From the NCBI RefSeq assembly GCF_030268005.1, contig NZ_BRZC01000004.1, forward strand, positions 496,001 through 560,000: a DNA stretch of 64,000 nt, in the 5' to 3' direction. This document shows, piece after piece, positions 51,069-55,764 of the stretch. Source of the stretch: Microbacterium arabinogalactanolyticum. Lineage in GTDB: Bacteria; Actinomycetota; Actinomycetes; Actinomycetales; Microbacteriaceae. The position numbers and the translations under genes were made by a program. Under the pieces are notes generated by a model. That model had not been told where the DNA came from. It worked only from the letters and a program-made list of their open reading frames with translations, and did no database searches. Positions within the stretch are counted from its first letter, which is position 1, and every line of letters starts with the position of its first letter.

Positions 51069-51107
51069 CGTCGCATGGGGGCACGGCTGCCGGTCGGAGG
51101 GAACAGT

Positions 51108-53108
51108 ATGCGTCAACGGTGGCTGGTCTGGGTCGCGGTCCTGCTCGGTACGGTCCTGGGCGGGTTCTCGCTGAGCGCGGCCTCCGCCACGGACCCAGGG
51201 CCACTCACCGGATCCGGCAACGTCACCGACATCAGCGGCGTGCTCTCTTCGCAGCAGGTGTCGGCGGCCGATGCCCGGCTGTCAAAGCTTCGCGCGGACA
51301 CGGGACTCGACCTCTTCGTCGTCTTCGTCCCCGAGTTCACCGGCGCCACCGACGAGAAGGACTGGGTCGCCCGCACCGCCTCGGGCAACGGCTTCAACGA
51401 CCATCAGTATCTGGTCGGCGTCTCGACCGAGGGGCGGATGCTCGCCATAGCCGGGCCCCAGCAGGGCGGCCCGATCTCGGTCTCCGACCGCACACAGATC
51501 ACCGACGCAATGCTCCCTGCGCTGCGTGGCAACGACTGGGCCGGATCGATCGACGCGGCGGCTGCCCAGGTGCAGGAGATGCTCGTCGACGGACCGGCGC
51601 GCACGGCGATGGGATGGACGGTATTCGGCATCATCTTGCTGATCGCCGTGATCATCGTCGTCGTCGTGCTGCTGATCCGACGGGCCCGCAAGCGAGCTGC
51701 CGAACAGGCGAAGCGCCGCGCGCAGCTGGTGGAGATCGGGCAGCAGGCGAACATCGCGCTCGTGCGCACCGACGATCTCGTGCGCTCCAGTGAGCAGGAG
51801 ATGGAGTACGCGCGCGCCCAGTTCGGCGACGACGTCATCGGCGACTTCGTCACGGCGCTGCAGACCTCTCGCACCAATCTGAACGAGGCCTTCTCCCTGC
51901 AGCAGAAGCTCGACGACGAGGTCCCCGACACCGACGAGCAGAAGCTGGAGTGGTCGCAGCGCATCCTCGAACTGTGCTCGGAGTCGACGAAGGTGCTCGA
52001 GGAGCGCAAGGCCGACTTCGACGAACTGCGCAAGCTGGAGCAGAACGCCCCTGCTGCGCTGGACAACGTGCGCAAGCTCCGAGCCGCCGCCGGTGCCGAG
52101 GTCGACCGCGCCGATCAGATCCTCGCCGCGCTCACAGCCGCCTATGCGTCCGCAGCGATATCACCGGTCGCCGACAACCCCGCGCAGGCCCGATCCCGCC
52201 TCGCGTTCACGGACACGCAGGTCGAGGCGGCCGACGGGTTCATCGCCGCGGGGAAGACCGGTGACGCGGCCGTCTCGGTGCGCGCCGCGGAGGGCGCCGT
52301 GCAGCAGGCGACGCAGCTGGAGGATGCCGTCGAGGAGCTGCAGAAGTCGCTGAAGGATGCCGATGATCGTGCCGCGGCTCTCGTCGCGGAGCTGGGCAGC
52401 GACCTGCAGACGGCCCGCGCGCTGCCCGACGCACAGGGCGCTGTCGCCCAGGCCGTCGCGGCCACGGAGCAGGGCATCCGCCAGGCGCAGAGCCAGCTCG
52501 GCGCATCGGGTCGCAATCCCGTCGAGGCGCTGCGCGTCCTTGAGGCGGCGAACATCGCGATCGACGGCGTCATCGCGCACGTGCGCGATGAACAGGCCAG
52601 GATCCAGCGCGCCGCCGCCATGCTGGGCGATGCGATGCAGCGCGCGCAGATGCAGATCTCCTCGGCGGAGAGCTTCATCCTCAATCGCCGTGGCTCGATC
52701 GCGTCGACCGCGCGCACACGGCTCTCCGAGGCCCAGGGAAGCCTCGACCAGGCGCAGAGCCTCGCCGGGACGGATCCGGTGCAGGCCCTCGCGCTCGCGC
52801 AGCGCGCCGACACCCTCGCCGCCGAGGCCCTGCGCCTCGCCCAGAACGACTACGGCGGGTGGAGCGGCGGCGGAGGCGGGAACGACAATCTCGGCGCCTT
52901 CATCGGCGGGATCCTCATCGGGTCGGCAGGCAGCCATGGTGGTGGCGGCTGGGGTGGTGGCGGCGGCCTCTTCGGCGGGGGCGGAGGAGGCGGCACCAGC
53001 GGGAGCAGCGGCGGATTCTTCGGCGGCGGAGGCGGCGGCGGCTTCTCCGTGGGAGGCTTCGGCGGAGGAGGCGGAGGGTTCTCCGGCAGCAGCGGAGGCC
53101 ACTTCTAG
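51108..53108 (+). CDS. TPM-domain membrane protein with coiled coil and Gly-rich tail
   Basis: Protein of 666 residues. The signal peptide (MRQRWLVWVAVLLGTVLGG) is followed by a TPM domain outside the membrane (about residues 25-170: VLSSQQVSAADARLSKLRADTGLDLFVVFV). One membrane helix (about 180-200) leads to a long alpha-helical, Ala/Gln/Glu-rich cytoplasmic coiled coil (about 205-580). The last 90 residues are Gly/Ser/Phe-rich repeats such as GGGFFGGGGGGG. GGAGGG six bases before the ATG at 51108 decides the start over 51075. It is paired with pspA downstream, so a role in envelope stress or membrane repair is inferred. Confidence 0.88.
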   Translation: MRQRWLVWVAVLLGTVLGGFSLSAASATDPGPLTGSGNVTDISGVLSSQQVSAADARLSKLRADTGLDLFVVFVPEFTGATDEKDWVARTASGNGFNDHQYLVGVSTEGRMLAIAGPQQGGPISVSDRTQITDAMLPALRGNDWAGSIDAAAAQVQEMLVDGPARTAMGWTVFGIILLIAVIIVVVVLLIRRARKRAAEQAKRRAQLVEIGQQANIALVRTDDLVRSSEQEMEYARAQFGDDVIGDFVTALQTSRTNLNEAFSLQQKLDDEVPDTDEQKLEWSQRILELCSESTKVLEERKADFDELRKLEQNAPAALDNVRKLRAAAGAEVDRADQILAALTAAYASAAISPVADNPAQARSRLAFTDTQVEAADGFIAAGKTGDAAVSVRAAEGAVQQATQLEDAVEELQKSLKDADDRAAALVAELGSDLQTARALPDAQGAVAQAVAATEQGIRQAQSQLGASGRNPVEALRVLEAANIAIDGVIAHVRDEQARIQRAAAMLGDAMQRAQMQISSAESFILNRRGSIASTARTRLSEAQGSLDQAQSLAGTDPVQALALAQRADTLAAEALRLAQNDYGGWSGGGGGNDNLGAFIGGILIGSAGSHGGGGWGGGGGLFGGGGGGGTSGSSGGFFGGGGGGGFSVGGFGGGGGGFSGSSGGHF

Positions 53109-53209: not shown

Positions 53210-53947
53210 ATGGCCAAGGAATCCATCTTCGGACGCATCTCCACGCTCGTCCGTGCCAACATCAACGCTCTCCTCGACCAGGCCGAGGACCCGCAGAAGA
53301 TGATCGACCAGCTCGTCCGCGACTACACGAACAACATCGCCGACGCCGAGTCCGCGATCGCGGAGACCATCGGCAACCTGCGTCTTCTCGAGCGCGACCA
53401 CGAGGAGGACGTGCAGGCTGCGACGGACTGGGGCAACAAGGCCCTCGCCGCCTCCCGCAAGGCCGACGAGCTCCGCGGCACCGGCCACACCGCCGACGCC
53501 GACAAGTTCGACAACCTCGCGAAGATCGCGCTGCAGCGCCAGATCAGCTCCGAGCGCGAGGCGAAGGCGGCCGAGCCGCAGATCGCATCGCAGACCGAGA
53601 TCGTCGACAAGCTGAAGGACGGCTTGAACGGCATGAAGAACAAGCTCGGCGAGCTCAAGACCAAGCGCAGCGAGCTGCTCGCCCGCGCCAAGGTCGCCGA
53701 GGCGCAGACCAAGGTGCAGGACGCCATCGGCTCGATCAACGTGCTCGACCCGACCAGCGAGCTGGGCCGCTTCGAGGACAAGATCCGCCGCCAGGAGGCT
53801 CTCGCCCAGGGCAAGGCCGAGATCGCCGCCTCGTCGCTGGACGCGCAGTTCGAGAGCCTCGAGGACCTCGGTGAGCTCACGGAGGTCGAGGCGCGCCTCG
53901 CCGAGCTCAAGTCGGGCAAGCCGCAGGCCGCCATCGAAGCCGAGTGA
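53210..53947 (+). CDS. pspA: PspA/IM30 (ESCRT-III-like) membrane-stress protein
   Basis: Protein of 245 residues, almost entirely helical coiled coil. The N-terminal amphipathic helix IFGRISTLVRANINALLDQAEDP and the following motif MIDQLVRDYTNNIADAE match PspA. It should polymerise on damaged membrane. AAGGGA lies nine bases before the ATG. A strong hairpin follows. Confidence 0.95.
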   Translation: MAKESIFGRISTLVRANINALLDQAEDPQKMIDQLVRDYTNNIADAESAIAETIGNLRLLERDHEEDVQAATDWGNKALAASRKADELRGTGHTADADKFDNLAKIALQRQISSEREAKAAEPQIASQTEIVDKLKDGLNGMKNKLGELKTKRSELLARAKVAEAQTKVQDAIGSINVLDPTSELGRFEDKIRRQEALAQGKAEIAASSLDAQFESLEDLGELTEVEARLAELKSGKPQAAIEAE

Positions 53948-54024: not shown

Positions 54025-54831
54025 ATGACCCGTTTCCTCATCGTCCCGCAGTGGCAGGGCTCGCCCGCCTCGCGGGCCATGCTCCTCATCGACGGCGCCA
54101 CCGCGATCGCCGGCGACCTGCCCCGCAAGGACACCACCGTCCTGGATGTGCCGCTCGAGGCCGGCGAATCGCTGGGCACCGGCGTGCGCCGGCTCAGCTC
54201 ACTGCTGCGCGTGCGGGAGCTGATCGCGGAGCACATGACGGATGCCGACGATCAGATCGTGCTCGTCGGCGGCGACTGCAGCGTGAGCGTGTTCGCGCTC
54301 TCCGCGATCGACACCTCGGATCTCGCCGTGCTCTGGTGCGACGCGCATCCCGATCTGAACGATCCCTCCACCTCCCCGTCCGGCGCGTTCTCCGGCATGT
54401 CCCTCGGAGCCGTGCTCGGCGACGGGGAGCCGCAGCTCGCGCTGAACCCGGGCATCCCCGCCGAGCGGGTCGTCCTCCTCGGCGCTCGCAGCGTCGATGA
54501 CGGCGAGAAGTCGCGACTGGACGCGCTGCGCACGCTCTCGCCGGAGGACGCACAGGATCCGGATGCCGTGGCCGAGGCGCTGCGCGCGACCGGGGCATCC
54601 CGGGTCTGGGTGCACATCGACGTCGATGTCATCGATCCCGCGGAGTTCGAGGGTGTCTCGGACGCGGAGCCGTTCGGCGTCAGCACGGCCGCCCTCGCCG
54701 CCGCCGTCAAGCGCGTCCGTCAGGATCTCCCGCTCGCCGGCGCGACGATCGCCGGGTTCGCGCCCCGCAGCCCCGCGGATGCCGTGCAGGACATGGGTGC
54801 GATCCTGCGCCTGATCGGTTCCGTGGCGTGA
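54025..54831 (+). CDS. Arginase/ureohydrolase-fold protein with a His-to-Cys change
   Basis: Protein of 268 residues with the ureohydrolase fold. Metal-binding blocks are LWCDAHPDLN (Asp, His, Asp) and HIDVDVIDPAEF (two Asp). The first block, normally GGDHS with a metal-binding His, reads GGDCS here, so one manganese ligand is replaced by Cys. The substrate (arginine, agmatine, formiminoglutamate or another guanidino compound) cannot be named. It precedes the small HExxH gene by 30 bases. Confidence 0.88.
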   Translation: MTRFLIVPQWQGSPASRAMLLIDGATAIAGDLPRKDTTVLDVPLEAGESLGTGVRRLSSLLRVRELIAEHMTDADDQIVLVGGDCSVSVFALSAIDTSDLAVLWCDAHPDLNDPSTSPSGAFSGMSLGAVLGDGEPQLALNPGIPAERVVLLGARSVDDGEKSRLDALRTLSPEDAQDPDAVAEALRATGASRVWVHIDVDVIDPAEFEGVSDAEPFGVSTAALAAAVKRVRQDLPLAGATIAGFAPRSPADAVQDMGAILRLIGSVA

Positions 54832-54861
54832 CGCGGCGCACGGCATGAGGCAGGCCGCACC

Positions 54862-55302
54862 ATGAGCGCCGACTGGCGCGCCGACGCCGAGCGTGCACTC
54901 GAGCGCGGGCGACGCTCCGACCTGCGCATCCCCTCGTTTCTGCTGCGCTCCCCCATCAGCCGGATCGGCTACTGGTGGGGCACCTCCGTCGGCTGGGTCT
55001 GGGGCTCGCTCTGGAGCACCGGACCGGTCGAGCGCCGTGCCGGCCTCTGGGTGTTCCGCGGCCTGCCTGACTGGGCCTACGGTCGCGGCGGGGTGTGCGT
55101 GGGCGGCTGCTATCTGACCGGTGATGTCGAACCCTCGGATGCCGTGCTGCGTCACGAGAGCGTGCACAAGCAGCAGTGGCTGCGCTACGGCTTCCTCATG
55201 CCGGTGCTGTACCTGTTCGCCGGCCGGAATCCCCTGCGCAACCGCTTCGAGATCGAGGCAGGTCTGGAAGACGGCGGCTATGTGCCGCGGTCCGGACGCT
55301 GA
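54862..55302 (+). CDS. Small HExxH protein, putative metallopeptidase of unknown family
   Basis: Protein of 146 residues. His98-Glu99-Ser-Val-His102 (RHESVHKQQW) is a full HExxH zinc motif; Glu130 and Glu132 in NRFEIEAGLEDGGY could give the third ligand, as in gluzincins. The N-terminal half has many Trp and hydrophobic residues (IGYWWGTSVGWVWGSLW, about 35-51) and may touch the membrane, and Cys79 and Cys83 form a CxxxC pair. I do not recognise a named family. It follows the arginase-fold gene and ends three bases before the convergent SIP gene. Confidence 0.8.
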   Translation: MSADWRADAERALERGRRSDLRIPSFLLRSPISRIGYWWGTSVGWVWGSLWSTGPVERRAGLWVFRGLPDWAYGRGGVCVGGCYLTGDVEPSDAVLRHESVHKQQWLRYGFLMPVLYLFAGRNPLRNRFEIEAGLEDGGYVPRSGR

Positions 55303-55305
55303 GCG

Positions 55306-55764
55306 TCAGAAGACCGGCAGTCCGTAGCGTGCGGGAGCGTGGATGGCCGTCGGCTCGACGCCGCACCCTCCGGTGAGGTGCTCGACGATGTCCGCCGTGC
55401 TGAGGTAACCGCCCAGCAGCGTGGCCTCGGTGCGCATCGCACCCTCGGAGTCGTCGCACAGCATCTCGTCCGCCCATGCGGTCGCGGCACGCGTGAGAGT
55501 CTCTCCGGCCGCCCGGCGGACGCCCCGACGGGTGCGAGGCAGCCAGGTGACGGTCATGCGCGGCGGCGCCGAGACGATGCTGACGTCGTCCTGGTCGGCG
55601 ACCTCGATGAACACACGGCCCACGGCGCACAGCGGCAGCGTCGCGAGCAGGACCTCCAGCTCGGCGAGCGAGTTCTCGTCGGCGGTGATCAGGTGCTGCA
55701 CCTGCGGGCGACGGGACGCCCGACGTGCGGCGCGTGCGCTCGCGGTCGTCTCGGCAGTGCTCAT
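55306..55764 (-). CDS. SIP-domain protein (stand-alone siderophore-interacting C-terminal domain)
   Basis: Protein of 152 residues equal to the C-terminal NAD(P)H-binding domain of siderophore-interacting ferric reductases: LITADENSLAELEVLL starts it and WADEMLCDDSEGAMRTEATLLGGYL is the core. The FAD-binding N-terminal domain is absent. It may work with a separate flavoprotein or bind nucleotide for another purpose. A near-consensus iron box lies upstream, so it should be induced by iron limitation. TACGAT nine bases before the ATG is the likely -10. Confidence 0.85.
   Translation of the reverse strand: MSTAETTASARAARRASRRPQVQHLITADENSLAELEVLLATLPLCAVGRVFIEVADQDDVSIVSAPPRMTVTWLPRTRRGVRRAAGETLTRAATAWADEMLCDDSEGAMRTEATLLGGYLSTADIVEHLTGGCGVEPTAIHAPARYGLPVF

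Follow-up and report, generated by a model that had tools for sequence, protein, structure and literature searches.

A chain of only 146 residues that carries the motif HESVH raises two questions: what so small a protein does, and with which of its neighbours it works. The earlier note had seen in it a possible new minimal gluzincin with a membrane-contacting, Trp-rich half, encoded behind an arginase-fold gene with an altered metal site. We examined this locus in the window, the whole stretch of 64,000 nucleotides, which belongs to a genome of 3.67 Mb in 13 contigs. The explanation that we favour, with a probability of about 60%, is that the gene encodes a predicted minimal gluzincin-type zinc metallopeptidase which, in the Microbacteriaceae, would serve the PspA/TPM envelope-stress system; it draws on alignments, gene order and structure models.

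The gene and its predicted zinc site

The frames that matter here lie as follows:

51075-53108 (+): TPM-domain protein, conserved upstream of PspA
53210-53947 (+): PspA/IM30 homologue, conserved upstream gene
54025-54831 (+): arginase-fold neighbour (PF00491), with GGDC as its first metal motif
54862-55302 (+): predicted minimal gluzincin, 146 residues from ATG to stop, supported by translation, homologues and dN/dS
54199-55167 (-): antisense frame of 322 residues, spanning the arginase-fold and gluzincin genes

Compared with 12 Microbacterium relatives picked by hand among the 80 listed loci, the 146-residue frame showed a dN/dS of 0.11-0.34, which indicates a real gene under purifying selection. 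We set aside the antisense frame as a true gene because conservation is carried by the plus-strand frame; in such GC-rich DNA it is probably spurious. The promoter scan found none, and two terminator-like matches appeared against 1.0 expected. The only histidines of the protein are His98 and His102, both inside HExxH. This motif arises in 168 of 200,000 shuffles of the protein's own residues, and conservation and shuffles together rule it out as a chance motif.

Conservation was scored over 92 non-redundant relatives, obtained by thinning 206 loci plus this protein with a k-mer similarity rule. The elements of the putative active site, and the signature that follows it, are:

55153-55167 (+): HESVH, residues 98-102, with His98 and His102 as predicted ligands and Glu99 as predicted general base; kept in 92/92 relatives, on helix 93-109 of the model
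55210-55212 (+): Tyr117, candidate active-site residue, kept in 90/92
55246-55263 (+): FEIEAG, residues 129-134, with Glu130 (55249-55251) as predicted third ligand, on helix 128-136 of the model
55273-55281 (+): G-G-Y, residues 138-140, C-terminal signature past the third-ligand helix (Gly138 72/92, Tyr140 71/92)

His98, Glu99, His102, Glu130 and Ala133 are invariant across the 92 relatives, and Gln105 (91/92), Tyr117 and Asn127 (88/92) nearly so. Every locus with a profile match carries HExxH (206/206), a count to be read with the fact that the search profile itself contains this motif, by which degenerate members may have been missed; Glu130 was never a filter. The conservation on which the earlier note had staked its zinc-site motif, HESVH plus a downstream glutamate, was therefore found among the homologues and reaches far beyond the genus. 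Its proposal that EIEAG supplies the third ligand is favoured by conservation for Glu130 but not for Glu132, which is kept in only 43/92 relatives and was rejected in that role. The family as a whole can be written RGGxxxGxxxLT...HExxHxxQW...Y...NxFExxAGLxxGGY, and its outer members follow the pattern GHVVL...HELVHVRQWERWG...YRDNxFExxA.

In the mechanism that we propose, one zinc ion would be held by His98, His102 and Glu130, Glu99 would activate a water molecule for zinc-dependent peptide hydrolysis, and the transition state may be stabilised by Tyr117, Tyr140 or both, which are conserved. It seems rather unlikely that the protein is instead a gluzincin-like zinc binder without peptidase activity, either another kind of hydrolase or a zinc-stabilised binding protein. 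Such a role would agree with the lack of any known activity in the family, with proabylysin, which the consulted part of its description reports to be without hydrolytic activity, its C-terminal tail blocking the site (PMC5557861), and with VgrG2b, for which the sections seen of its report identify no direct substrate cleavage (PMC6899460); by analogy, the conserved GGY tail could block the site likewise. Against it stands Glu99, which would be catalytic and no zinc ligand and is nevertheless present in 92/92 relatives, and the corresponding VgrG2b mutant, E936A, lost toxicity according to the same partly seen report (PMC6899460).

Predicted fold, Trp-rich helix and cysteines

AlphaFold2 modelled the protein from 60 aligned sequences with a pLDDT of 88.3 and a pTM of 0.82, and a second relative from 32 sequences with 88.5 and 0.83. 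The first model contains helices 3-20, 31-51, 93-109 (HExxH), 112-120 and 128-136 and strands 56-59, 62-65, 78-80 and 83-85; the order of elements is unchanged in the second, but its helices 93-109 and 112-120 are joined. The fold would begin with a pair of N-terminal helices, continue through two beta-hairpins to the HExxH helix, and close with a hydrophobic helix and the short Glu130 helix. In the structure prediction called for earlier, the modelled HExxH lies entirely on helix 93-109 and Glu130 near the start of the later helix 128-136.

Foldseek against the PDB gave no match with E <= 0.001; the first model came closest to IrrE (E 0.5), the second reached no better than 3.9, and besides zincins the lists contain other, unrelated folds with comparable E. 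With VIA, the 11 chains listed of the 89 aligned to the first model are all zincin metallopeptidases, a class to which we presume some of these entries belong, at weak Z scores of 2.0-4.0 (6h56 4.0, 3c37 3.9, BepA 3.7, selecase 2.1, IrrE 2.0); both chains listed of 20 for the second model are zincins as well, again with weak scores (3c37 3.5, BepA 3.2). Proabylysin and projannalysin were not among the match rows of either Foldseek or VIA. In BFVD, a nameless viral protein of 116 residues was matched with E 7e-4. These weak structural matches hint at the zincin fold class, and both the model and the profile comparison given below point to a gluzincin.

Two further features had drawn attention to this chain:

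54952-55014 (+): Trp-rich helix, residues 31-51, with no clear transmembrane segment by model and hydropathy
55096-55110 (+): CxxxC, Cys79 and Cys83, in a beta-hairpin and lineage-specific by model and alignment

Tryptophan occupies nine positions (5, 38, 39, 45, 47, 51, 63, 71 and 106), with seven in the stretch 38-71, and the earlier note had read membrane contact from this half of the protein. That suggestion fared poorly. The best 19 residues of helix 31-51 have a mean KD of 0.37 in this protein, only 5/85 scorable relatives have a helix here as hydrophobic as a usual transmembrane segment (19-residue KD >= 1.6), and its tryptophans are often replaced in distant members. A transmembrane helix 31-51 was discarded as unsupported on these hydropathy counts. 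An integral-membrane minimal metallopeptidase similar to M48/M56, in which the bilayer would take up both helix 31-51 and the one that follows HExxH, would account for the favourable octanol transfer energy of helix 31-51, for the hydrophobic helix after HExxH and for the structural matches to M48 peptidases, whose Z scores are weak; the hydropathy of the family argues against it, as KD >= 1.6 is reached in only 5/85 relatives for the first of these helices and in 15/92 for the second, and we hold it to be improbable. We regard the Trp-rich helix chiefly as an element of the fold that possibly faces the membrane; the predicted gluzincin has no clear transmembrane segment and is probably cytosolic.

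The CxxxC motif is present in 59/60 rows of the folding alignment, and across the wide family Cys79 is kept in 36/92 and Cys83 in 34/92 relatives. Given its hairpin location and lineage-specific occurrence, we rejected it both as a family-wide feature and as a zinc knuckle.

Distribution and gene neighbourhood

Homologues were found in 34/35 genomes of Microbacterium, its own genome counted, and in 182 of 249 Microbacteriaceae genomes belonging to 64 of 85 genera, almost always as one match per genome. Among the 20 listed of the 67 Microbacteriaceae genomes without a match, 10 are smaller than 2 Mb and others measure ~3 Mb. The profile search gave matches in 120/394 genomes of the class and 76/296 of the phylum, two samples that overlap. 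All of the closest named relatives among the matches listed are labelled Microbacterium or 'Actinomycetota bacterium', and 80 named loci were kept from at least 511 confirmed stretches. One genome of the same genus (G102), in 10 contigs and with an estimated completeness of 100%, carries PspA but gave no gluzincin match, and is a candidate for natural gene loss.

A plasmid search with this protein returned no match at E <= 0.001; with the outer member L189 as query, relatives of ~36% identity annotated as hypothetical protein appeared on two Polaromonas naphthalenivorans plasmids. The phage search with this protein gave two short weak matches only, in the Thermus phages phiLo and YS40_Isch. 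A phage-type relative lies on an IMG/VR contig and matches Pseudoalteromonas phage and Phage C48C1, and no confirmed match came from scanning viral_contigs with the GHVVL-type alignment.

Arginases carry GGDH at their first metal motif. The altered metal site attributed to the preceding gene is real: GGDC stands for GGDH in the window, and the 80 listed Microbacterium loci have Cys at this position in 79 cases and Gly in 1, with DAHxD in 80/80. Such a genus-wide alteration probably means a changed activity of the arginase-fold protein. In each of the 80 listed named Microbacterium loci this gene is the next tested gene upstream, with aligned parts 0-66 bp from those of the gluzincin (307 and 394 bp in two loci), and PspA was found in 79/80. 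The full order TPM, PspA, arginase-fold, gluzincin, SIP, phosphatase, hydrolase and binding protein is kept in 63/80. The SIP-domain (siderophore-interacting) gene at 55306-55764 (-) faces the gluzincin gene tail to tail, the two stop codons being 3 bp apart, and is matched in 79/80 listed loci.

Further loci of the genus (L001-L035) have the arginase-fold gene upstream in 34/35 cases, the flank of L029 showing neither it nor PspA. In 18 larger regions from other genera, chosen by hand from the listed matches and including one short contig, the arginase-fold gene is upstream in 15/18 and PspA, TPM and the oxidoreductase are present in 12/18 each. The recurrent order of this wider Microbacteriaceae cluster is TPM, PspA, arginase-fold, (flavin oxidoreductase) and gluzincin. 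In many other Microbacteriaceae loci (among L036-L041, L152 and L300-L322), the gluzincin gene is immediately preceded by one for a pyridine-nucleotide disulphide oxidoreductase (VGGECSYWACVPSK), often past the arginase-fold gene; the window has no match to it. Loci outside the Microbacteriaceae (L042-L058, L159-L163, L165-L206), seen mostly with ~1.5 kb of flank, gave no PspA or arginase-fold match.

Whether the gluzincin and the arginase-fold protein work together had been left open by the earlier note. A functional pair, in which for instance a freed peptide or arginine-like product would be handled by the ureohydrolase-fold protein, is what the adjacency invites, with 80/80 listed named loci (often gapless), 34/35 further ones and 15/18 other-genus regions; nevertheless, a flavin oxidoreductase often stands between the two genes, PspA is directly upstream in several genomes, L029 is a Microbacterium locus without an arginase-fold match in its flank and no biochemical link is known, so that we consider such a pair highly improbable.

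Our comparison of PspA and gluzincin in 249 Microbacteriaceae genomes found both in 145, the gluzincin alone in 37, PspA alone in 8 and neither in 59, counts that are inflated by shared descent and genome reduction. Because 37 genomes carry the gluzincin gene without a PspA match, PspA is not required. Distances were taken from 150 listed gluzincin matches and 148 listed PspA genomes, of which 117 had both; 13 were split between contigs and 7 had PspA elsewhere than upstream within 10 kb. Two genomes (G908 and G1016) are among the 33 listed without a PspA position, yet are PspA-positive in the PspA table. Among the matches listed, 104 genomes have both genes on one contig, and in 97 of them a same-strand PspA precedes the gluzincin gene by no more than 10 kb; chance upstream placement would amount to ~0.14% per genome, although the genomes are related. 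The distance from PspA to the profile match is at most 350 bp in ten of those 97 and at most 60 bp in three; the true gaps are shorter, because the distances end at the start of that match, inside the gluzincin gene. At the locus L313 and in the genomes G881, G958 and G1064, which are among these 10, PspA lies 43-263 bp upstream of the gluzincin match, with no room for an arginase-fold gene.

The upstream position of PspA in 97/104 genomes suggests work in envelope stress, and as a candidate partner PspA takes precedence over the arginase-fold protein. Under the reading that we favour, the small protease would act on the inner side of the membrane in the service of PspA and TPM, clipping a protein that is either damaged or regulatory.

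Relation to known zincins and toxin domains

At E <= 1, the protein has no match in Pfam, including M48 (PF01435) and M78/IrrE (PF06114), or in NCBIfam, and the whole genome has no PF13699 match. For 14 diverse members PADLOC and NCBIfam returned nothing, PF13699 (eCIS_core) was weakly matched by 2/14 (best E 0.024), and two other Pfam names were hit by one member each at E > 0.1. The nine outer-group rows (8 distinct proteins) gave two single weak matches in NCBIfam; five of the nine rows matched eCIS_core with a best E of 0.0031, and no other family was listed. PHROGs gave weak matches only (best E 0.019). Two outer members scored 14.0 and 16.6 bits against eCIS_core, under its cut-off of 22, so the Pfam threshold for PF13699 membership was not reached. 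An apparent likeness to the alpha-xylosidase 5jou (profile E 0.0018; protein alone E 0.035) was set aside as chance.

Profile-profile comparison with hhalign gave a probability of 77.9% for eCIS_core, 6.9% for M48 and 2.0% for M78, using 29/30, 27/30 and 20/30 loci respectively, the eCIS set being noisy (14/29 rows without HE..H..Q and 7 more without a readable Glu motif). In the controls for eCIS_core, ten column shuffles remained at <= 0.16% and the reversed set at 0.10%. The same run scored eCIS_core against M48 at 90.2% and against M78 at 85.1%, which makes the 146-residue family more remote from M48 and M78 than eCIS_core is. The local eCIS_core match spans only the strand and the HExxHxxQ helix; when a global alignment was forced, at a low probability of 15%, RFEIEA faced RFEREA of an eCIS protein. 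The family carries the HExxHxxQ...E signature through Gln105 and Glu130, the latter 32 residues from the first His. The best reading of these profiles is that the family is nearest to PVC-metallopeptidase (eCIS_core) while lying outside the Pfam cut-off. The 'new minimal gluzincin' of the earlier note stands as regards a family without a name, but not as regards the class, which is known already from minigluzincins and PVC-metallopeptidase.

In several actinobacterial genomes very long proteins end in this domain. The match covers the full domain at the C-termini of L170, L195, L198 and L201 and is partial and weaker in L196, L197, L199 and L200; seven of these eight long proteins exceed the RHS_repeat cut-off, L196 falling just under it (20.0 vs 22 bits). 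The Pfam scan of the eight RHS proteins produced no name of the Tox-MPTase1-5 series, from a library that may not carry all five models. RHS proteins ending in this metallopeptidase domain are a possible undescribed polymorphic-toxin tip, and a common origin of the RHS-end domain and the 146-residue family fits these matches.

The source PMC3482391 is, we presume, Zhang et al. 2012. Its consulted part describes PVC-metallopeptidase as an HExxHxxQ-E protein that is mostly a releasing peptidase but in some cases follows RHS repeats as the toxin at the C-terminus (PMC3482391). This double use, together with our relatives at the extreme C-terminus of RHS-repeat proteins (7/8 above the cut-off), would accommodate the domestication of a polymorphic-toxin domain that survives either as a relic or as an effector against other bacteria. 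The gene of the window is, on the contrary, standalone, almost always a single match, present in 64/85 genera and part of a conserved cluster, which is a housekeeping pattern, and we think a toxin origin of this kind improbable here. A broader proposal, which we offer as tentative, is that new and widespread HExxHxxQ...E minimal gluzincins are the protease of a Microbacteriaceae PspA/TPM module (TPM, PspA, arginase-fold, flavin oxidoreductase and gluzincin), and that the RHS/eCIS toxin peptidases would be offshoots of such small housekeeping proteases.

Several points give this locus a wider interest. The family is carried by 120/394 class and 76/296 phylum genomes, yet no scanned library names it; our search of the open-licence literature found no description of it, which is weak evidence. 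Its compact scaffold lends itself to asking how small a zinc protease can be, and the tie between a housekeeping-like protein and toxin-like domains bears on the origin of RHS/eCIS peptidase toxins. It would also give PspA a new partner that can be put to the test, in a bacterial family whose type genus goes unnamed in the main text, as far as consulted, of the 2024 PSP survey, from which the word arginase is likewise absent (PMC11237479).

Among known systems, PVC-metallopeptidase/eCIS_core (DUF4157, PF13699) is the closest of the three zincin families by profile. Both share HExxHxxQ and a downstream Glu, within DRFEREA there and NRFEIEA here, at a spacing of 32 residues in this family and in 4/8 readable eCIS rows (25-28 in the others), and both also occur at the C-terminus of RHS proteins, on the eCIS side according to the part seen of PMC3482391. 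The present protein differs in being standalone, in its AGLxxGGY tail, in its TPM-PspA cluster and in the absence of a PF13699 match.

The best structural match, the effector domain of VgrG2b (6h56; Z 4.0, rmsd 3.8 over 91 residues), likewise has HExxH and a Glu ligand, and the consulted part of its report gives the ligands as H935, H939 and E983 atop a helix (PMC6899460). All three fall within the VIA-aligned range. In contrast to our 146-residue standalone protein, it is a 179-residue chain of a T6SS spike, at 9% identity and with a weak Z tied with M48. The minigluzincins proabylysin, projannalysin and selecase, with a fold of about 100 residues, may resemble the predicted protein as small single-domain scaffolds with HExxH and Glu; the selecase match (Z 2.1) is too weak to settle this, and sequence searches of the PDB gave no match to minigluzincin chains. 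M48 peptidases (BepA, HtpX-like) have the gluzincin zinc site that is predicted here and match at Z 3.2-3.9 (BepA 6ait and 3c37), whereas the hhalign probability of 6.9%, the missing PF01435 match and the far shorter chain set our protein apart.

Finally, the sections seen of the PSP survey describe TPM-PspA pairs, a PspA-PspAA-PspAB system that includes a metallopeptidase associated with the membrane, and a repeated coupling to polyamine genes (PMC11237479), and by analogy this last coupling may bear on the arginase-fold gene. Likened by its description in that partly seen survey, the PSP metallopeptidase is membrane-associated, whereas the predicted gluzincin studied here is small and apparently non-transmembrane (PMC11237479).
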